A DNA stretch of 64,000 nucleotides, taken from positions 62,001-126,000 of the forward strand of contig PHFB01000002.1 of NCBI GenBank assembly GCA_002841355.1, read 5' to 3'. This stretch comes from Actinobacteria bacterium HGW-Actinobacteria-1. Its GTDB lineage: Bacteria; Actinomycetota; Coriobacteriia; Anaerosomatales; Anaerosomataceae. Position numbers and translations under genes: made by a program. Position 1 is the first letter of the stretch. Every line of letters starts with the position of its first letter. Below are positions 11,510-21,605 of the stretch, in pieces. The notes beneath the pieces were generated by a model. The model was not told the origin of the DNA. It made no database searches and saw only the letters and a list, made by a program, of their open reading frames with translations.

Positions 11510-11896
11510 GGTTCTCAGTAGCCGGGGCGGCCTTCGCACCGCCCGAGTCGCCCCTCCACAGGGCCATCCTAGGGAGATACTTGGCCAAGTGAGTGGTCCC
11601 TCTCGGCCGCACTCCCGGAAATTCCAGAGGCTTATGCCCGATGTCCCGTTCGGCCGTGCCCCTTCGAGTACGTACACTTACTTACGAGGTTGCCGTCTTC
11701 CGACGACCTGACACGATCACGAACTGAACCTACACAACAGCTAAGCGGGAATCTTCCTCTGCCACCCCGGCTGAAACTGGGATTCTATCGCTCTCAGACC
11801 GGCGTCACCTCCGATACCTGCATCGGCCTCCGGAGGCTCAATCCACCTCCGTCACAGTTGGTATACCCGCACGTGGCGTGACGCTCACAAAAACAA
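11510..11896. other. 387-bp stretch without a recognisable gene
   Basis: No open frame here has convincing coding character or a ribosome site. The stretch has many short dyads: GGGGCGG/CCGCCC (from 11524), a 12-nt palindrome ACTTGGCCAAGT (11579-11590), a GTC-TTCC-GAC hairpin near 11695 and a palindrome GCCTCCGGAGGC near 11826. Because both ends are closed by terminators pointing inwards, an independent structured RNA is possible, but I could not match it to RNase P RNA, tmRNA, SRP RNA, 6S RNA or a known riboswitch. Confidence 0.3.
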
Positions 11897-11930
11897 CGTC
11901 GCCGGCGAGAATGTGCTCTCGCCGACGACG
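11897..11930 (-). terminator. Intrinsic terminator of the selenoprotein gene
   Basis: On the minus strand a 14-bp stem (one G-U pair) with a 6-nt loop is followed by a U-rich tail TTGTTTTTGTG. It lies 19 bp beyond the TAG of the rhodanese-thioredoxin gene, in the right place and orientation to end its transcript. This supports the view that the gene ends at 11950 and not at the UGA at 12190. Confidence 0.9.
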
Positions 11931-11949
11931 TGATCATCGTTGCTGCGTG

Positions 11950-12684
11950 CTACTTGAGCGCGTCCAGCTGCTGGCGCAACTGCGCCTCGCTGACCTCACC
12001 CACGATCTCCTTGTTGATGGAACCGTCGGCGTTCACGAACTCGAACGTCGGAACGAACTGCGCACCAAGCTGGTTCGCGAGATTCGCGCCCTCGGCGTCC
12101 TTCTCGACGTTGTAGAGCTTGAACTCGACCTTGCCCTCATACTCCTTCTTGAGCCCGTCGACCACGGGCTTCATCTTCTGGCACGAGGGTCACCAATCGG
12201 TGTAGAACTCGTACAGCACCGGTAGGCCGCTGGCAGACGGCGCGAGCGATCCCACGACGGTACCACCCGGACCCGATGTGACATCGCCATCCCAGGCGAC
12301 GATACCGTTCTGCAGGTTGTACACAGTAGTGAAACCCGCCGAGACCAGGATCTGCATCGCTTCGACCGACCGCGAACCCGTGGCACAGTACACGAGGATC
12401 GGCTCGGTCTTGTCCCACGAGCCCATCGCTGCGCTCAACTGATCGAGCGGAACGTTCTCGGCCTCAGGGATATGCCCGGCTTCGAACTCAGATGTGGTGC
12501 GCACGTCGATGATCCGCACGCCCTTGTCTTCCAGCGTCTTCGCTGCTTTGTTCTGCACGTTTCCCGCAGCCGGAAGGCTGCTGCTGCAGCCCGCCAGACC
12601 GAGCATGGCCACGACGGCGAAGAGTGCTGCCGCGATGCCTACGATGCGCAGACCGCGGAGCTGGTCACGCTTCAAAAGATGCAC
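11950..12684 (-). CDS. Predicted selenoprotein: rhodanese-thioredoxin fusion lipoprotein with in-frame UGA (Sec)
   Basis: The GTG at 12684 has GAGGAGG five bases upstream. The frame reads 164 codons, then UGA (12190-12192), then 79 more sense codons to TAG, 244 aa if UGA is read as selenocysteine. Residues 1-32 are a lipoprotein signal with lipobox LAGC. Residues about 50-135 are a rhodanese domain (IIDVRTTSEFEAGHIPEA) with active-site YCATGSRS. Residues about 155-244 are a thioredoxin fold: LYEFYTDW-U-PSCQKMKP replaces the usual W-C-x-x-C, and cis-Pro is in FVPTFEF. UGA falls exactly at the first catalytic Cys, both sides are in frame and conserved, and a SECIS-like hairpin follows, so recoding is far likelier than a nonsense mutation. 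It presumably acts as a membrane-anchored thiol/selenol oxidoreductase or sulfur-transfer enzyme outside the cell. Confidence 0.85.
12152..12192 (-). promoter_or_regulatory. Candidate bacterial SECIS element with recoded UGA
   Basis: In the mRNA the UGA (12192-12190) is followed by 19 nt and then a 7-bp perfect stem AGCCCGU / ACGGGCU (12170-12164 and 12158-12152) closed by the loop GGUCG. The loop starts 26 nt after the UGA. Known bacterial SECIS hairpins lie just 3' of the UGA with an apical-loop G among the first two loop bases, and the E. coli fdhF loop also begins GGUC. The hairpin therefore fits what SelB needs, though only experiment or a SECIS search would prove it. Confidence 0.7.
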
Positions 12685-12705
12685 AAGTACCTCCTCAAAG
12701 GTGCA

Positions 12706-12734
12706 GATATACCCTGCCAGGTATTATGCAGCAA
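12706..12734 (-). promoter_or_regulatory. Candidate promoter of the selenoprotein gene
   Basis: On the minus strand TTGCTG (complement of 12729-12734) and TATATC (complement of 12706-12711) are separated by 17 bp, placing the transcript start about 15 bp before the GTG at 12684. The match to the housekeeping sigma consensus is reasonable but not perfect. Confidence 0.45.
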
Positions 12735-12854
12735 GGTTCGTGCCGTGATAAGAGAGCTTTGACCAGGACGGTTTCGTGGCACAATGATTCTTTGGGGCCC
12801 TTCTGCTGCGTTCAACTGCGCAGGGCGGCTGAGCGTCGGACCGAGAGCGTGGAC

Positions 12855-15800
12855 ATGGCACAAGCTGACTCTCCTCAACGCTGGATGATTCCCTCCGGCG
12901 ACGATCCTCTTCGCGGAGAGCTTCTGAGCGCCGAGCGGCTCTCCGAGGCTGCCCGAGAACTGGCAGGGCACCAACCGTGGACCGCCGCGGAGATGCTGCG
13001 CGCAACCCCGCTCCTTTCCCTTGTCGAACGCGCCGAGGAATCGCTCAACCGGGTGTACACCAGCCTCGCACTCGCAGTGCGCGACCAGACTCCCGTATCC
13101 GTGTCCGCCGAGTGGCTGCTCGACAACTTCTATCTTGTCGAAGAACAGATCCACACCGTCCGAGACGATCTCCCCGACGACTACGGCGCCGAACTGCCCC
13201 GGCTGCTCGAAGGCGAATACCGGGACTACCCCCGGATCCTCGAAGCGGTCGCGTTGCTCGTAACGGCCACTGATGCCCGGCTCGACCGCGAGCATCTTGA
13301 GCGGTACGTCATGGCATTTCAGGATGTCTCGCCGCTGACGATCGGCGAAGTCTGGGCCGTGCCGATCATGCTCAGGATCTGCCTCGTCGAGAACCTACGC
13401 CGGCTGGCGCTGCGTGTGCTGTCCGCCCACGATGCCAGCGTCGCTGCAGACACCTGGGCGAACCGCATCCTGGAGGCCGCACAGAAGGTCGACGGTGATG
13501 TCCGTGTCGTTGTGGAGGCCATGGCGCGCACGAACTCGAACGCTAGCCCCACGTTCCTCATCAGGCTCGCCGGACGGCTGCAGGACCAGGATCCCTCGGT
13601 GGAGCCGGCTGTCGCCTGGCTTGAGGCAGCGATCGCCCGGAGCACCGAGTCCTTCGAAATGCTCACGTTCGCCGAGCATCAGGCCCAGGCCGCAGACCAG
13701 GTCTCCGTGGCTAACGCGATCACAAGCATCCGCTTCCTCGGCGCCCTTGAGTGGCGCGAGTTCTTCGAGGACTGCTCTCTTACCGAACATATCCTCCGAG
13801 AAGACCCATCGGGCGTGTACCCGCGCATGGACTTCACGTCGCGCGACCGCTACCGTCACGCCGTCGAGCAGATCGCATCTCGCTGCCCACACACCGAGAT
13901 CGAAGTGGCCGAAGCGGTTCTATGCCATGCACTTGAGGCGCTCCGGCGAGACGCGGCCGACCCGGTGGGCGGACACGTCGGTCACTACCTCATCAGTCGT
14001 GGACGCTACGCCCTCGAGCGCAGCCTTGATTACCGACCTCGCCTGCGCGAGCTCGCATACCGGGGACCACTCGCCAGCAAGGGCGTGATCTTCTGGGGGC
14101 TGTTGGGGGCATTCACCTGGCTGCTAGTGATCGGCATGGCCGCATACGTCATGAGACGCGGCGTCGGCACGGCATGGACGATCGCGCTCATCCTGCTTTC
14201 GATCGTCCCGCTTTCGGACCTGTCGGTGAACGTCGTCAACCGCATCGCATCGACGGTGTGGCCCGCGCGCACGCTCCCGAAACTCGACTTCCTGAGGCCG
14301 GTGGCCGTCGCGCACCGCACGATGATCGTGATCCCTGCGCTTCTCACCTCGCCGGGCGGGACGCAGGCGATCATCGACAACCTCGAGCTCGCCTATCTCG
14401 CGAACAAGGATGACAACGTCCGCTTCGGACTGCTCGGCGACCTGAAGGGCGGAGCCGAGGAGCGCATGCCGGGCGATGCGGCCGTGATCGATGCAGCACG
14501 TCACGGCATCGCGACGCTGAACGAGACGTATGGCGAGGATGGGACGGGTCCGTTCCACCTCTTCATCCGTGGTCGCCGGTTCAACGAGGCCGATGGTGTC
14601 TGGATGGGATGGGAGCGCAAACGCGGGGCGCTGCACGAGTTCTCGCAGCTGCTGCGCGGTGCACCCGACACGAGCTTCTCGGTGGTCGATGGCGACGAAG
14701 CGGTGCTGCCGACGATCACGTTCGTGATAACGCTCGACTCCGACACCGTCTTGCCACGAGACGGCGCGCGCAAGCTGGTCTCGACGATCGCCCACCCGCT
14801 CAACCGAGCGCAACTCGACGATGCGCGCCGCAAGGTCGTGCGCGGCTACGGGCTCGTACAACCACGGGTCGGCATGTCGCTAGAAGGAGCCGAACGCTCG
14901 CCGTTCGCATGGCTGTACTCGGGCGTGACGGGCATCGACCCATACGCTGGGGCCGTCTCGGACACGTACCAGGATGTGTTCGGCGAGGGTTCGTTCACCG
15001 GCAAGGGCATCTTCGAGGTCGACGTCATGAACGCCGTGCTCGAAGACCGCTTCCCCGAGAACACGCTGCTCAGCCACGACCTGCTCGAAGGCAGTTTCCT
15101 TCGCACGGCGCTTGCGAGCGACATCGAGGTGCTCGACGACCAGCCTGCCAGCTACGTCAGCCACGTGGCACGCCTGCACCGTTGGGTGCGCGGCGACTGG
15201 CAGACGCTGCCGTGGCTCGGACTGACGGTGCCCACCGCGACGGGGCGGGAGCGCAATCCCCTCTCGGCACTACACCGGTGGAAGATCATCGACAACCTGC
15301 GGCGAAGCCTGCTTGCACCGACGATGATGCTCTTCGCGGGCGCTGGCTGGATCGCGCTCCCGGGCCGCGACTGGGTGTGGCTGGCGGCGGTGCTCGCGAT
15401 TGTCTTCTTCCCGGTGTACTTCAGCATCGCCGACTCGCTGCTCTTCCGCCCGCGCGGCGCCGACGTGCGCGGCGACACGCACTCGATCGTGAGCGACTTC
15501 TGGCGGGACTCGGCACGTGCGCTGCTCAACCTCGCCGTGCTGCCGCACCAGGCGGTCGTCATGCTCGACGCGATCGTCCGCGCGCTGTGGCGGATGACGA
15601 TCTCGCACAAGAACATGCTCGAGTGGGAGACCGCAGCGGAGACGGAGCGTCGTCTCGGCTCGACTTCGGCCGGCTTCCTGCGCAGGATGTGGACCGGAGA
15701 GGCCGCGCTTGGCGCCATCGTGCTCCCTGCAGCGGTGCTCGACCCGGTCTCGCTCGTCTCGGCATCGCCGCTCGTGCTGCTGTGGGCGGCCGCGCCGCTC

Positions 15801-18800
15801 ATCGCGTGGCGCGTCAGCGCCCCCACGCCGCACGAACCGCCGGCACTCACACCGGCAGATGTCGTTGCGATGCGGCGGGTGGCCCGCAAGACGTGGCGAT
15901 TCTTCGAGACGTTCGTGACGGCCGAGGACCACTGGCTCGCACCCGACAACTTCCAGGAGGATCCGAGGGGCGTCGTGGCGCACCGCACCTCCCCCACGAA
16001 CATCGGTCTGCAGCTCATCTCGGCGCTCTCGGCGTACGACCTGGGATACGTAAGCGTGCGTGGGCTGGCGAACCGCTCGATGCAGACGCTTACGACGATG
16101 GCGGGCATGGAGCGCTACCGCGGACACTTCTACAACTGGTACGACACCACTACGCTGCAGCCGCTGCGCCCGAACTACGTCTCTACGGTAGACAGCGGCA
16201 ACCTAGCCGGGCATCTCGTGGTGCTGCGTGTCGGGCTCACGGAGGTCGCCGAGAGACCCCTCGTGGACGCCCAGGTGCTTAACGGCCTCGCCGACACGGT
16301 GCTGCTGGCACTGGAGGAGCTCCTTAGCCAGCGCGATGCGGTCGGTCCGGCAGCGATGGTCGCCGAGCTTCGGACCTCGCTTGAGGAATTGCTGCGGCGC
16401 ATCCGCCTCGAGACGGCACCCGCCGACCTCAGCGAGTGGCGGCAGCTCCTGGCGGGGTTGGCTGTTGTCACGGAAAGCCTGCCCACGCGGGCCGCCGCGC
16501 TGCGTGGCGCACCTCTGACGCTCGACCTCGTCCTGGCTGCCGTCGACGCAGTGCGCAACTGCCTGCACGAACACCTCTCGGACATCGACACGTACGCCCC
16601 GTGGGCGCACATGCTCGGCGCGGTTCCGGAAGCCTTCGAGTCGGGCGACCGCGCGGATGCGCTCGCACCGGTCACGCGCCACACGCCAAGCCTCGTCGGT
16701 CTTGCCGAAGGGCTCGAGGGCGTGCTGGCATGCCTCCGCGACACGCAGGGGCTCGACGATGTCGCCGCGGCGTGGGCGACGAGGCTTGCCGATGGGATCC
16801 GGGACCGCCGCGCAACCGCGTCGGCGCTCCTCTCGGAGCTGCGTCTTTCGACCGAGATAGCGCGCGAGATGTGGGAGCGCACGGACTTTGCGATGCTCTT
16901 CGACGAGAGCCGCATGGTGTTCTCCATCGGCTTCAATACCGCCGAGGGGCGCCTCGACAACTCCTTCTACGACATGCTGGCAAGCGAGTGTCGTCTGGCG
17001 AGCTACCTCGCGATCGCGAAGGGCGACGTGCCGCAGGAACACTGGTTCCGGCTCGGCAGGTCGCTTACGAAGACCGAGGGCGGCCGGGCGCTCGTCTCCT
17101 GGAGCGCGAGCATGTTCGAGTACCTCATGCCGCTGCTCGTGATGCGAGACTGGCCGGGAACGCTGCTCGACCAAACGTACAAGAACGTCGTGAAGCGCCA
17201 GATCCAGTACGGCAAACAACGTGGCGTGCCCTGGGGCGTCTCGGAAAGCGCGTTCAACGCCAAGGATGTGGACCTGACCTACCAGTATCAGGCGTTCGGC
17301 GTGCCGGGCCTTGGCTTGAAGCGCGGGCTCTCCGACGACGTCGTCGTGGCGCCGTACGCGACGGTGCTCGCGCTGCAGATCGCGCCACGTCTCGCGCTCG
17401 ACAACCTTGAGGTGCTCTCAAAGCAGGGCGCCGAGGGACGCTACGGCTATTTCGAAGCCGTCGACTACACGCCGGGACGCGTGCCGGCCGGTAGAGAGCG
17501 CGCGATCGTGAAGGCGTACATGGCGCACCACCAGGGCATGAGCCTGGTCGCACTCGGCAATATGCTCACGCACGACCGGATGCAGGAACGCTTCCACGCC
17601 GACCCCGTAATCCGCTCGTCTGAGTTGCTGCTGCAAGAACGCGTGCCGAGACGCACGCAGCTGGCGCAGCCGCATGTCGAGGAGGTGCGCTTCGTGCGCT
17701 CGGTGCGCGAGATCGCACCGCCCGTGCATCGCTCCTACCCGCTTGCAGGCACGCCCGTTCCCGCGACCCACTTCCTCTCGAACGGGTCGTACTCCGTGAT
17801 GGTCACCAATGGCGGTGGTGGCTACAGCCGCTGGCGCGACCACACGGTCACTCGCTATCGCGAGGACGTCACGCGCGACTGCTGGGGCCAGTTCTTCTAC
17901 CTGAAGGACGTCGAGAGCGGCGAGGTGTGGTCGGCGGCGTACCAGCCGTCACTTGCCGAACCTGACGAGTACCACGTGACGTTCTCGGCGGACAAGGCCG
18001 AGTACCAGCGCGTGGACAACGGCGTTGAGACGCACACCGAGGTCGTTGTCTCGCCGGAGGACGACGTCGAGGTCCGGCGGATCACCGTCACCAACCGGCG
18101 TCGGACGCCGCTCTACCTGGAGGTCACGTCGTACTTTGAGGTGACGCTCGCGCAAGGCGAGTCCGACCACGCGCACAAGGCGTTCAGCAACCTGTTCGTC
18201 GAGACAGAAGCGATCGAGGAGCTGGATACGCTGCTCTTTTCGCGCAGGCCACGCTCAGCGCACGAGGATCGCCCGTGGGGCATGCACGTCCTCGCTTGCG
18301 ATCTGGGCGAGCGGTGCAACTGGAGCTATGAGACCGGCCGAGAGGCGTTCCTCGGCAGGCTGCACACGCCGGGCGACGCACGCGCCATCTGGGGCGATGG
18401 GCGCCTGACCGGCACGGTCGGCGCGGTGCTCGACCCGATCTGCTCGATCCGGCAGACGCTCGAGCTCGGCCCGGGCGAGACCGCGCACCTTGCGTTCACC
18501 ACCGGTGTCGCCGAGACGCGTGAGGGCGCCGTCGCGCTTGCCGAGCGGTACCGCGACATCCGGGCGGCCCAGCGCGCGCTCGACCTCGCGTGGTCCACGA
18601 GCCAGATCGAGCTGCGCGACCTGGGCATCACACCCGAGGAGGCCGTCGTCTTCCAGCGGCTCGCATCGCGGCTGCTGCTCACCGACCCGCGCTCGCGGCT
18701 CAAGGTGCTCACGAAGGTCGAGAACCGGCTGCCGATCGCCGGCCTCTGGTCGATCGGCATCTCCGGCGATTACCCGATCCTGCTCGTGAAGATCGAACGT

Positions 18801-21605
18801 CTCGAAGAGACGCCGCTTGTGCGACAGGCGATGCTCGCCCACCAGTACTGGCGCTCGAAAGGCTTCGAGTGCGACCTCATCATCCTCAACACGAAGCCAA
18901 GCGCGTACGCCTCGGAGCTTGATGGCCGCCTACGCATGCTGCTTCGCACCGGTCACGCGCTGCAGTTGCACGACAAGCCCGGCGGCGTACACCTCCGTGT
19001 CGCCGACCAGGTGCCCGCCGACGTGCGCAACCTGCTCGACAGCGTCGCGCGCGCTGTGCTCACGGGTGACGGCGGCCCCATCGGCCTGCACCTCAACCTA
19101 CGTGCCACCCCGGCTGACGAGCCCGACCCGCTCGTGCCCATCGCTCCTGTGCTTGCAGAGCCCGACCCGCCCTTCGTGCGTCCCGTGCTGGTGCACGACA
19201 ACGGCTACGGTGGGTTCGACCCCGAGACCGGCGAGTACGTCATCATCCTCCGGGACGCCGACGCTACACCTGCGCCGTGGGTGAATGTCATGGCGAATCC
19301 CACCTTCGGTGCGCTCGTCTCGGAGGCAGGAATCGGTTGCACCTGGGCCGAGAACAGCCACGAGAACCGCATCACCACCTGGAACAACGACCCCGTTGGC
19401 GATGGCACCGGCGAAGCGTTCTACATCCGGGACGAGGAGAGCGGCGAGTTCTGGAGCCCCACGCTCCTGCCGATCCGCGACGAGGCGCCGCATGTTATCC
19501 GACACGGGAGGGGCTACACCCGCTTCGAGCACACCTGCCATGGCGTACGTCACGAGATCGATTGGTTCGTCGCTGCGGATGATCCGGTGCGCCTTGTTCG
19601 CGTGCGGCTGACGAACGTGTCCAGGCGTCGGCGGCACCTCTCGGTGACGCACTTCGTTGAGTGGGCGATCGGCGATTCGCGCAGCAAGGCGCAACAACAG
19701 GTCGTGACCTGGTGGGACGATGCGAAGCGCGTGCTCATGGCACACAACTACTTCAACTTCGACTTCCCCGGCAGGCCGGCGTTCCTTGCCTGCGACTGCG
19801 AGGCAGACTCGTTCACCGCAAGCCGCACCGAGTTCCTCGGCCGCAACGGGGATCCACGAGACCCCGCCGCCATGCATCGCCTCGAGCTTGGCGGCGCGAC
19901 CGGGCGCTTCCTCGACAACTGCGGCGCGCTCATGCGCAAACTGGTGCTGCAGCCGGGCGAAGACATGGAGATCACGTTCTTCCTCGGCCAGACCGAGACG
20001 GTGGAGGAGGCGCACGCGCTCATCGACCGGCTCCGCCAGCCGGGCGCCGTCGACGCCGAGCTCGCCGAGGTTCGCGAGCGCTGGAGCCGCACGCTTGGCG
20101 CGGTGGAAGCGGAAACCCCTGACGCGGAGCTCGACCGTATGGTGAACGGTGCCGCGCTCTACGAGGCGCTCGCCTGCCGCTTCTGGGGTCGCACCGCCAC
20201 GTACCAGTCGAGCGGCGCGTTCGGCTTCCGAGACCAGCTGCAGGACTGTCTCGCGCTCATGTATGCCCGCCCGGACCTCGTCCGCGACCACATCATCGAA
20301 GCCGCGCGGCACCAGTTCCCCGAAGGTGACGTGCTGCACTGGTGGCAACCGGTTTCGGGTCGCGGCGTTCGCACGCGTTTCGCCGACGATCGGTTGTGGT
20401 TGCCGTTCGTGACAGCCGAGTACATCAAAGCGACGGGCGACACCTCCGTGTTGGACGTGGAGGTGCCCTACCTCGAGGGACCCCCGGTACCGGATGACCG
20501 CGAGGACCTCTACCTGCAGGCGCAGCCGTCCCTCCAGCTCGGAAGCGTGTACGAGCACTGCCGAGCAGCGATTGACGTGAGCATGGCGACCGGTGCGCAC
20601 GACCTACCGCTCATGGGCGGCGGTGACTGGAACGACGGCATGAACCGCGTCGGTATCGGCGGCGCCGGCGAAAGCGTGTGGATGGCGTGGTTCCTCGACG
20701 TCGTGCTGCGCGCGTTCGCACCACTCGCCGAGACGCGCGGCGATTCCGATGCGGCAGTGACGATGCTGTCGCACGCGGCCGCGCTCATAGCGGCGATCGA
20801 GCGCGAGGCATGGGACGGCGCCTGGTACCGCCGCGCCTTCTTTGACGATGGCACACCACTGGGAACGAGCGCAGCCGACGAGTGCCGTATCGACGCGATC
20901 GCGCAAGCGTGGGCGATGGTCTCGGGCAGAGGCAACGCTCAGCGGGCTCAGCGCGCGCTCCAGAGCGTGGAGGAGAAGCTCGTACGCTGGGATGATGGCC
21001 TCGTCGCGCTGCTCACGCCACCGTTCGACCACATGCAGCACGACCCCGGCTATATCAAGGGATACGTCCCCGGCGTCCGTGAGAACGGCGGTCAGTACAC
21101 GCATGCCGCCATCTGGGTCGCCCTCGCCTACGCGCTCATGGGCGACGGCGACGAAGCAGTCGCGCTGCTCGACCTCATCAACCCCGTGAACCACGCGCTC
21201 GACCGTGCTTCGGCCAACCGGTATCGCGTGGAACCGTACGTGATCGCTGCCGACGTCTACGCCGTTGAGCCGCATGTCGGCCGAGGCGGTTGGACGTGGT
21301 ACACGGGCTCGGCAAGCTGGTACTACCGCGTGGCGGTTCAGAACATCCTCGGCCTGTATCTCGAGGCCGAGAACGGGCAGCGCTACCTGCGCCTCGATCC
21401 GTGCGTCCCGAAGACGTGGACCTCCTGGACGGTCACGTTCCGAGACGGTGACGCGACGTACGAGATCGCCTTCGACAACCCGCGCGGCGTGAAACGGGGC
21501 GTCGAGAGCGTCACGGTTGATGGCGTCGCTCGCGACGACCTGCGCGTGCCGCTCGACGGCGCGGCGGGTGCGCACGCGGTGCACGTCGACCTGCTCGGCG
21601 GGTAA
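12855..21605 (+). CDS. Cyclic beta-1,2-glucan synthase-like giant glycosyltransferase/phosphorylase (NdvB/Cgs type)
   Basis: 2916 aa from the ATG at 12855; the frame is open further upstream but without coding character, and the ribosome site is weak, so the start is uncertain. An N-terminal region of about 400 residues is followed by membrane segments near 420-480, a cytoplasmic GT84-like transferase with TLDSDTVLPRDG, more membrane segments around 820-860 and 950-990, then a glucoamylase-like domain (GVPWGVSESAFNAKDVDLTY). The last 1300 residues contain two beta-supersandwich blocks (the second with MANPTFGALVSEAGIGCTWA) and an (alpha/alpha)6 GH94 barrel with the catalytic Asp in GGGDWNDGMNRVG. 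Rhizobium NdvB has about this size and order; it polymerises, trims and cyclises beta-1,2-glucan. Product linkage and ring formation here are inferred only. Confidence 0.88.
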   Translation: MAQADSPQRWMIPSGDDPLRGELLSAERLSEAARELAGHQPWTAAEMLRATPLLSLVERAEESLNRVYTSLALAVRDQTPVSVSAEWLLDNFYLVEEQIHTVRDDLPDDYGAELPRLLEGEYRDYPRILEAVALLVTATDARLDREHLERYVMAFQDVSPLTIGEVWAVPIMLRICLVENLRRLALRVLSAHDASVAADTWANRILEAAQKVDGDVRVVVEAMARTNSNASPTFLIRLAGRLQDQDPSVEPAVAWLEAAIARSTESFEMLTFAEHQAQAADQVSVANAITSIRFLGALEWREFFEDCSLTEHILREDPSGVYPRMDFTSRDRYRHAVEQIASRCPHTEIEVAEAVLCHALEALRRDAADPVGGHVGHYLISRGRYALERSLDYRPRLRELAYRGPLASKGVIFWGLLGAFTWLLVIGMAAYVMRRGVGTAWTIALILLSIVPLSDLSVNVVNRIASTVWPARTLPKLDFLRPVAVAHRTMIVIPALLTSPGGTQAIIDNLELAYLANKDDNVRFGLLGDLKGGAEERMPGDAAVIDAARHGIATLNETYGEDGTGPFHLFIRGRRFNEADGVWMGWERKRGALHEFSQLLRGAPDTSFSVVDGDEAVLPTITFVITLDSDTVLPRDGARKLVSTIAHPLNRAQLDDARRKVVRGYGLVQPRVGMSLEGAERSPFAWLYSGVTGIDPYAGAVSDTYQDVFGEGSFTGKGIFEVDVMNAVLEDRFPENTLLSHDLLEGSFLRTALASDIEVLDDQPASYVSHVARLHRWVRGDWQTLPWLGLTVPTATGRERNPLSALHRWKIIDNLRRSLLAPTMMLFAGAGWIALPGRDWVWLAAVLAIVFFPVYFSIADSLLFRPRGADVRGDTHSIVSDFWRDSARALLNLAVLPHQAVVMLDAIVRALWRMTISHKNMLEWETAAETERRLGSTSAGFLRRMWTGEAALGAIVLPAAVLDPVSLVSASPLVLLWAAAPLIAWRVSAPTPHEPPALTPADVVAMRRVARKTWRFFETFVTAEDHWLAPDNFQEDPRGVVAHRTSPTNIGLQLISALSAYDLGYVSVRGLANRSMQTLTTMAGMERYRGHFYNWYDTTTLQPLRPNYVSTVDSGNLAGHLVVLRVGLTEVAERPLVDAQVLNGLADTVLLALEELLSQRDAVGPAAMVAELRTSLEELLRRIRLETAPADLSEWRQLLAGLAVVTESLPTRAAALRGAPLTLDLVLAAVDAVRNCLHEHLSDIDTYAPWAHMLGAVPEAFESGDRADALAPVTRHTPSLVGLAEGLEGVLACLRDTQGLDDVAAAWATRLADGIRDRRATASALLSELRLSTEIAREMWERTDFAMLFDESRMVFSIGFNTAEGRLDNSFYDMLASECRLASYLAIAKGDVPQEHWFRLGRSLTKTEGGRALVSWSASMFEYLMPLLVMRDWPGTLLDQTYKNVVKRQIQYGKQRGVPWGVSESAFNAKDVDLTYQYQAFGVPGLGLKRGLSDDVVVAPYATVLALQIAPRLALDNLEVLSKQGAEGRYGYFEAVDYTPGRVPAGRERAIVKAYMAHHQGMSLVALGNMLTHDRMQERFHADPVIRSSELLLQERVPRRTQLAQPHVEEVRFVRSVREIAPPVHRSYPLAGTPVPATHFLSNGSYSVMVTNGGGGYSRWRDHTVTRYREDVTRDCWGQFFYLKDVESGEVWSAAYQPSLAEPDEYHVTFSADKAEYQRVDNGVETHTEVVVSPEDDVEVRRITVTNRRRTPLYLEVTSYFEVTLAQGESDHAHKAFSNLFVETEAIEELDTLLFSRRPRSAHEDRPWGMHVLACDLGERCNWSYETGREAFLGRLHTPGDARAIWGDGRLTGTVGAVLDPICSIRQTLELGPGETAHLAFTTGVAETREGAVALAERYRDIRAAQRALDLAWSTSQIELRDLGITPEEAVVFQRLASRLLLTDPRSRLKVLTKVENRLPIAGLWSIGISGDYPILLVKIERLEETPLVRQAMLAHQYWRSKGFECDLIILNTKPSAYASELDGRLRMLLRTGHALQLHDKPGGVHLRVADQVPADVRNLLDSVARAVLTGDGGPIGLHLNLRATPADEPDPLVPIAPVLAEPDPPFVRPVLVHDNGYGGFDPETGEYVIILRDADATPAPWVNVMANPTFGALVSEAGIGCTWAENSHENRITTWNNDPVGDGTGEAFYIRDEESGEFWSPTLLPIRDEAPHVIRHGRGYTRFEHTCHGVRHEIDWFVAADDPVRLVRVRLTNVSRRRRHLSVTHFVEWAIGDSRSKAQQQVVTWWDDAKRVLMAHNYFNFDFPGRPAFLACDCEADSFTASRTEFLGRNGDPRDPAAMHRLELGGATGRFLDNCGALMRKLVLQPGEDMEITFFLGQTETVEEAHALIDRLRQPGAVDAELAEVRERWSRTLGAVEAETPDAELDRMVNGAALYEALACRFWGRTATYQSSGAFGFRDQLQDCLALMYARPDLVRDHIIEAARHQFPEGDVLHWWQPVSGRGVRTRFADDRLWLPFVTAEYIKATGDTSVLDVEVPYLEGPPVPDDREDLYLQAQPSLQLGSVYEHCRAAIDVSMATGAHDLPLMGGGDWNDGMNRVGIGGAGESVWMAWFLDVVLRAFAPLAETRGDSDAAVTMLSHAAALIAAIEREAWDGAWYRRAFFDDGTPLGTSAADECRIDAIAQAWAMVSGRGNAQRAQRALQSVEEKLVRWDDGLVALLTPPFDHMQHDPGYIKGYVPGVRENGGQYTHAAIWVALAYALMGDGDEAVALLDLINPVNHALDRASANRYRVEPYVIAADVYAVEPHVGRGGWTWYTGSASWYYRVAVQNILGLYLEAENGQRYLRLDPCVPKTWTSWTVTFRDGDATYEIAFDNPRGVKRGVESVTVDGVARDDLRVPLDGAAGAHAVHVDLLGG

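Follow-up and report, generated by a model that had tools for sequence, protein, structure and literature searches.

What does the in-frame UGA at this locus specify: the end of a protein, or selenocysteine (Sec) at the active site of a thioredoxin domain? The gene lies in the window, a 64,000-nucleotide stretch of contig PHFB01000002.1 from Actinobacteria bacterium HGW-Actinobacteria-1 (class Coriobacteriia, order Anaerosomatales). The original prediction placed a lipoprotein with a rhodanese domain and a Sec-containing thioredoxin domain at positions 11950-12684. These coordinates are correct and the strand, which had been left unstated, is the minus strand; translation of the plus-strand frame over the same interval gave no such protein. 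With TGA read as Sec, translation from the GTG at 12684 runs through ...YTDWUPSCQKM... to a TAG, and the W-U-P-S-C motif that had been predicted lies in a thioredoxin domain (Table 1). Without the Sec reading, the gene falls into two frames of 164 and 74 residues. The strong terminator predicted after the TAG is also present, on the minus strand.

Table 1 Features of the Sec-containing rhodanese-thioredoxin gene, in window positions.
Feature	Position	Strand	Evidence
Whole gene	11950-12684	-	244 residues including one Sec, from GTG to TAG; UGA-containing homologues exist
Signal sequence, lipobox L-A-G-C at its end (residues 30-33, Cys33)	12586-12684	-	Sequence inspection; helix 5-31 in model
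Rhodanese domain, residues 45-132	12289-12552	-	PF00581, E 2.2e-20
Rhodanese active-site loop C-A-T-G-S-R	12370-12387	-	Cys100 at 12387-12385
Thioredoxin domain, residues 155-241	11962-12222	-	PF00085, E 1.9e-14; PDB thioredoxin fold match
In-frame UGA, U165 of W-U-P-S-C	12190-12192	-	TGA in 51/51 homologues
Resolving cysteine C168	12181-12183	-	TGC in 51/51 homologues
bSECIS hairpin	12152-12170	-	7-bp stem, loop GGUCG, UGA-to-loop 26 nt
Intrinsic terminator, 16-pair stem and T tail	11896-11931	-	Strong; directly 3' of gene
Promoter-like site TTATCA-17-CATAAT	12723-12751	-	Consensus match only
Shine-Dalgarno GAGGAGGT (AGGAGG, 5 nt before GTG)	12689-12696	-	Sequence

When 398 genomes from the class were searched, full-length homologues containing the UGA were recovered only from the window's order. 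A phylum-wide sample of 396 genomes likewise contained the complete Sec fusion of rhodanese and thioredoxin only in this order. The homologues are 38-88% identical to the window protein (50-row alignment). Each of the 51 distinct full-length homologues has TGA at position 165 and TGC at C168; the site holds UGC/UGU in none of them and no unrelated codon, so the comparison of relatives suggested by the original prediction came out in its favor. In the closest pair, the region after the UGA has a dN of 0.033 and a dS of 0.319, which indicates that it is selected as protein. This pair was used because the broad median dN/dS is inflated by saturation and the dS filter, and was set aside.

The hairpin is as had been claimed, beginning 19 nt past the UGA with 7 bp and the loop GGUCG, and the 61-nt fold has a z of -4.1. 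Loop, stem length and the 26-nt distance agree with the published bSECIS constraints (PMC13188914). Six core stem pairs form in all 51 homologues. When codons were resampled synonymously (1000 draws), all six pairs were kept in a mean of 4.2 of the 51 and in 14 at most, ruling out that the hairpin is due to the amino-acid sequence alone. Both partners are exchanged at two core pairs (U-A/C-G/G-C at one, G-C/C-G/U-A/A-U at the other). Of the 51 loops, 47 read GGUCG and the others CGUGG, CGUUG or GGUUC, and excess RNA structure is limited to folding windows that start at residues 163-168. Sec is predicted to be inserted at the UGA by SelB via this bSECIS element, which lies within the coding sequence.

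The genome itself (2.44 Mb, 98% complete) contains all of the selenocysteine machinery for which the original prediction had proposed a search. The tRNA-Sec gene (selC; 67.8 bits, anticodon TCA), selA, selB and selD are all located within 24.3-33.5 kb of contig C8. The selD gene (L010, G000:C8:24312-25226) has an in-frame TGA of its own, so SelD is probably a selenoprotein too. Among 69 genomes of the order, 48 have both the gene and selA, 12 the gene only, 6 selA only and 3 neither, a count that includes any UGA-containing member, fused or single-domain, and is weakly informative as many of the assemblies are incomplete. Two genomes, G045 (98% complete) and G049 (96%), carry a UGA gene (L032, L034, L078) even though selA, selB and a clear tRNA-Sec were not found in them. 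In the window's own genome the sel genes form one cluster, so a single assembly gap could remove all of them; we count the two genomes against our best explanation.

These two genomes are also all that was found to favor the UGA being a true stop, dividing two genes or marking a pseudogene, or a sequencing error. This reading has a negligible chance of being right, as it must contend with the UGA and the downstream Cys in 51 of 51 homologues, compensatory changes in the SECIS, protein-level constraint past the UGA and the genome's own Sec machinery. A sequencing error, which the original prediction had named as a way in which it could fail, is rejected because the same UGA and a co-varying SECIS recur across dozens of independent assemblies. 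Taking the sequence evidence together, the rhodanese-thioredoxin protein is a selenoprotein, because the UGA is universal among its full-length homologues, the resolving Cys is kept, the bSECIS hairpin carries compensatory changes and the sel genes are present. By this comparison Sec is obligate in the full-length fusion, being kept in every copy seen. Other TGA-spanning open frames in the window also gave Sec candidates; one of these was translated (54913-), proved to be of low complexity and was taken as chance.

Both domains carry the features of their families. The PF00581 fold is accompanied by a six-residue loop beginning with Cys, and the rhodanese catalytic Cys is present in 50/51 homologues, Gly103 in 51/51 and Arg105 in 50/51. 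In one homologue (L029, 622-1293, minus strand) Tyr replaces the catalytic Cys (VYYATGSR) and U-P-S-C is intact; in another (L042) the loop Arg is lost. In the thioredoxin domain U165, C168 and the cis-proline P212 are invariant among homologues, and both PF00085 and the fold agree with the assignment. The AlphaFold model shows both domains at high confidence with an uncertain mutual orientation (pLDDT 89, pTM 0.57). That the protein is a lipoprotein holds for this gene, by inspection of its LAGC lipobox, but not for the group: beyond the window's genus only a few members carry the lipobox, and most have a plain N-terminal membrane anchor. The predicted architecture is thus an exported, membrane-anchored (here lipid-anchored) PspE/GlpE-type rhodanese joined to a Sec-thioredoxin.

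Is this architecture new? The original prediction knew of no described fusion of this kind. The prokaryotic selenoprotein families inventoried in 2026 (PMC13188914) include Sec-thioredoxins, Sec-rhodaneses and TsoB, and a rhodanese-thioredoxin fusion with Sec in UxxC is absent from the inventory; nor was such a Sec fusion found in full-text literature searches, and the window protein passed no model cut-off in NCBIfam. The statement therefore stands for the inventory, but needs qualification because TsoB combines the same domain types. TsoB, a rhodanese/DsbD fusion-like selenoprotein (NF045694) that PMC13188914 attributes to Haft and Tolstoy 2025, was compared via that paper and the NF045694 model. 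Like the window protein, it is a selenoprotein with an N-terminal rhodanese (~55-150 in the model) and a C-terminal thioredoxin (~471-569). It differs in having a DsbD-type membrane part between the two domains and two Sec residues (UxxxxU), whereas the window protein has no membrane part and one Sec in UxxC. Membership in TsoB is rejected, since the window protein scores 36.5 bits, over the rhodanese part only, against a cut-off of 805 bits. No TsoB above the cut-off was found in the 69 genomes of the order. A search for TsoA (NF045695) matched 0 of the 69 genomes and gave no match in any control genome either.

Other families share single elements with the window protein. Sec-thioredoxins and thiol:disulfide interchange proteins (PF00085/PF13098, UxxC) have the same fold with Sec as the first of the active-site pair, but are plain thioredoxin families in the inventory, which lists no rhodanese fusion among them (PMC13188914). 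Sec-containing rhodanese-like proteins (forms 1-4) likewise place a rhodanese domain in a selenoprotein, but with the motifs UxxS, UxxG or CxU (PMC13188914), whereas in the window protein the rhodanese keeps its Cys and Sec sits in the thioredoxin domain. The single-domain rhodaneses PspE and GlpE are of the same class and similar domain size, PspE is an exported protein, and a dithiol is a possible sulfur acceptor for them, but they have neither a fused thioredoxin nor Sec. The CcdA-dependent proteins ResA, StoA and the DsbD C-terminal domain are anchored extracytoplasmic thioredoxin domains too, and CcdA is found beside some relatives of the window protein, but they lack a rhodanese and have Cys in place of Sec.

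The gene upstream is divergent and the downstream glnK convergent, so that the selenoprotein gene looks like a single-gene unit. The divergent gene is a giant one (window 12624-21605, plus strand, ~2900 aa) of the glucoamylase-like/cyclic glucan synthase type; it and the selenoprotein gene have one intergenic region in common, and the pairing is kept at most fusion loci. That most fusions adjoin this same divergent giant (PF10091 glucoamylase-like, cyclic glucan synthase type) suggests one ancestral locus. The commonest neighbors of the fusions are the glucan synthase-like gene and amtB/glnK. They have no link to sulfur, and gene neighborhood was discarded as a clue to function.

We propose that the protein is a sulfane-sulfur (persulfide) reductase working within one chain, a reading that we consider probable. 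Thiosulfate, polysulfide or a persulfide would donate a sulfur to Cys100 of the rhodanese, giving Cys-S-SH. This persulfide would then be attacked by Sec165 in the thioredoxin domain, and Cys168 would resolve the resulting Se-S bond with release of H2S. A selenol-thiol pair is a stronger nucleophile, and persulfide reduction may require Sec, which is present at every full-length copy seen. The anchored extracytoplasmic thioredoxin would need electrons from inside, and its oxidized Se-S pair would be re-reduced by electrons crossing the membrane via a CcdA/DsbD-type protein. As to the individual steps, the Arg that ends the rhodanese loop is required for thiosulfate cleavage in RDL2 (PMC8533005). 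The persulfide of periplasmic PspE reacts with the dithiol acceptor DTT to give sulfide and a disulfide (PMC2593051), and work cited in that paper concerns an interaction of GlpE with thioredoxin; in the window protein the same-chain thioredoxin would serve as the dithiol acceptor. CcdA is encoded directly downstream on the same strand at three loci only: L065 and L069, both Sec fusions, and L087, a Cys thioredoxin relative. The window's locus is not among them; in its genome, CcdA is encoded on contig C16. TsoB, with its rhodanese and thioredoxin ends around a DsbD-type middle, indicates that the three functions belong together elsewhere.

Several observations count against this mechanism. 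These are the homologue without the rhodanese Cys and that without the loop Arg, together with the rarity of an adjacent CcdA gene, the sulfur-unrelated neighbors and the Sec-thioredoxins without a rhodanese. The latter are common in the order, implying that the thioredoxin has uses without the rhodanese. The uncertain domain orientation in the model also counts against reading the transfer from Cys100 to Sec165 as intra-chain. We hold more tentatively, as a possible rather than a probable account, the complete picture of a surface-anchored one-chain selenoenzyme that would convert the sulfane sulfur of thiosulfate or another donor to sulfide, with the rhodanese persulfide passed directly to the same-chain Sec-thioredoxin and electrons supplied by CcdA. 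Sulfur chemistry outside the cell, as the original prediction proposed, is plausible, and its purpose is probably cell-surface sulfur assimilation, detoxification or redox housekeeping, rather than respiration.

Three other functions were weighed. The protein could be a general envelope disulfide reductase resembling ResA, StoA or the DsbD C-terminal domain, in which the Sec-thioredoxin reduces disulfides of exported proteins and the rhodanese serves for docking or sensing. This function would fit with the CcdA gene beside three members and with the existence of single-domain Sec-thioredoxins that share the UPxC motif, both within the order and in further families of the phylum. Docking alone, however, needs neither the rhodanese Cys nor the C-x-x-G-x-R loop, and both are kept in nearly all 51 homologues; we consider it unlikely, though the most credible of the three. 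A role in selenium handling, where the rhodanese would carry a perselenide from selenite reduced outside and the Sec-thioredoxin would release it to feed the cell, is improbable. Rhodanese binds selenium as perselenide in vitro (Ogasawara 2001, as cited in PMC5877670) and the gene occurs in a Sec-using order, but it is unlinked to the sel cluster (the gene is on C21, the sel genes on C8), and six selA-positive genomes of the order have no match at the E-value used, so that the gene would not be required for Sec synthesis. Slightly more improbable still is a respiratory role, as a dissimilatory reductase of thiosulfate or sulfur. Within the order, the cultured Anaerosoma tenue respires both of these, a role for which the authors of its description could assign no more than a distant CISM-family complex (PMC9686372). 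Parvivirga hydrogeniphila, however, reduces neither sulfur nor thiosulfate (PMC9686372), and the genome that is probably its own (G005) has the full gene (L025), as does the one matched to A. tenue (G016). If the genome match is correct, a non-reducing strain carrying the gene speaks against a respiratory role, and thiosulfate respiration is disfavored on this ground.

A persulfide reductase of this design would give selenium a likely role in extracellular sulfur handling. The rhodanese plus Sec-thioredoxin adds a lineage-wide architecture to the selenoproteins of a little-studied anaerobic order. Many thioredoxin-type selenoproteins have Cys counterparts; the full-length fusions here all keep Sec, which makes the advantage of selenium over sulfur directly testable on a persulfide substrate. 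Rhodanese, membrane electron carrier and thioredoxin, the domain types that make up TsoB, occur here in a different arrangement, a hint that the two may share a chemistry outside the cytoplasm.

The wider family contains further variants. Single-domain Sec-thioredoxins from other families of the phylum are mostly U-P-x-C (L126-L134, with one U-G-A-C), have a similar hairpin, and in many cases a lipobox-like signal; one of them was searched against NCBIfam and passed no model. In the thioredoxin tree of the order, built on few columns and with many unresolved forks, fusions and single-domain copies are interleaved. Two loci (open frames L088:3087-4887 and L089:533-3863, with the match inside) encode lipoprotein-like rhodanese-thioredoxin fusions without UGA, whose rhodaneses lack the Cys (VVYDKTGAG, VVYGSKDAK) and whose thioredoxin part is Cys-free in one and has C-D-V-C in the other; these are possibly degenerate paralogues. 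At L085:1726-2537 (plus strand) the rhodanese and Sec-thioredoxin parts lie in two frames, either through an assembly frameshift or as a split gene. Finally, single-domain Sec-thioredoxin genes of the order (L073, L075, L077-L081) are repeatedly located beside a divergent NAD synthase gene, and several also have genes for tryptophan synthase alpha-like proteins and PLP enzymes nearby.
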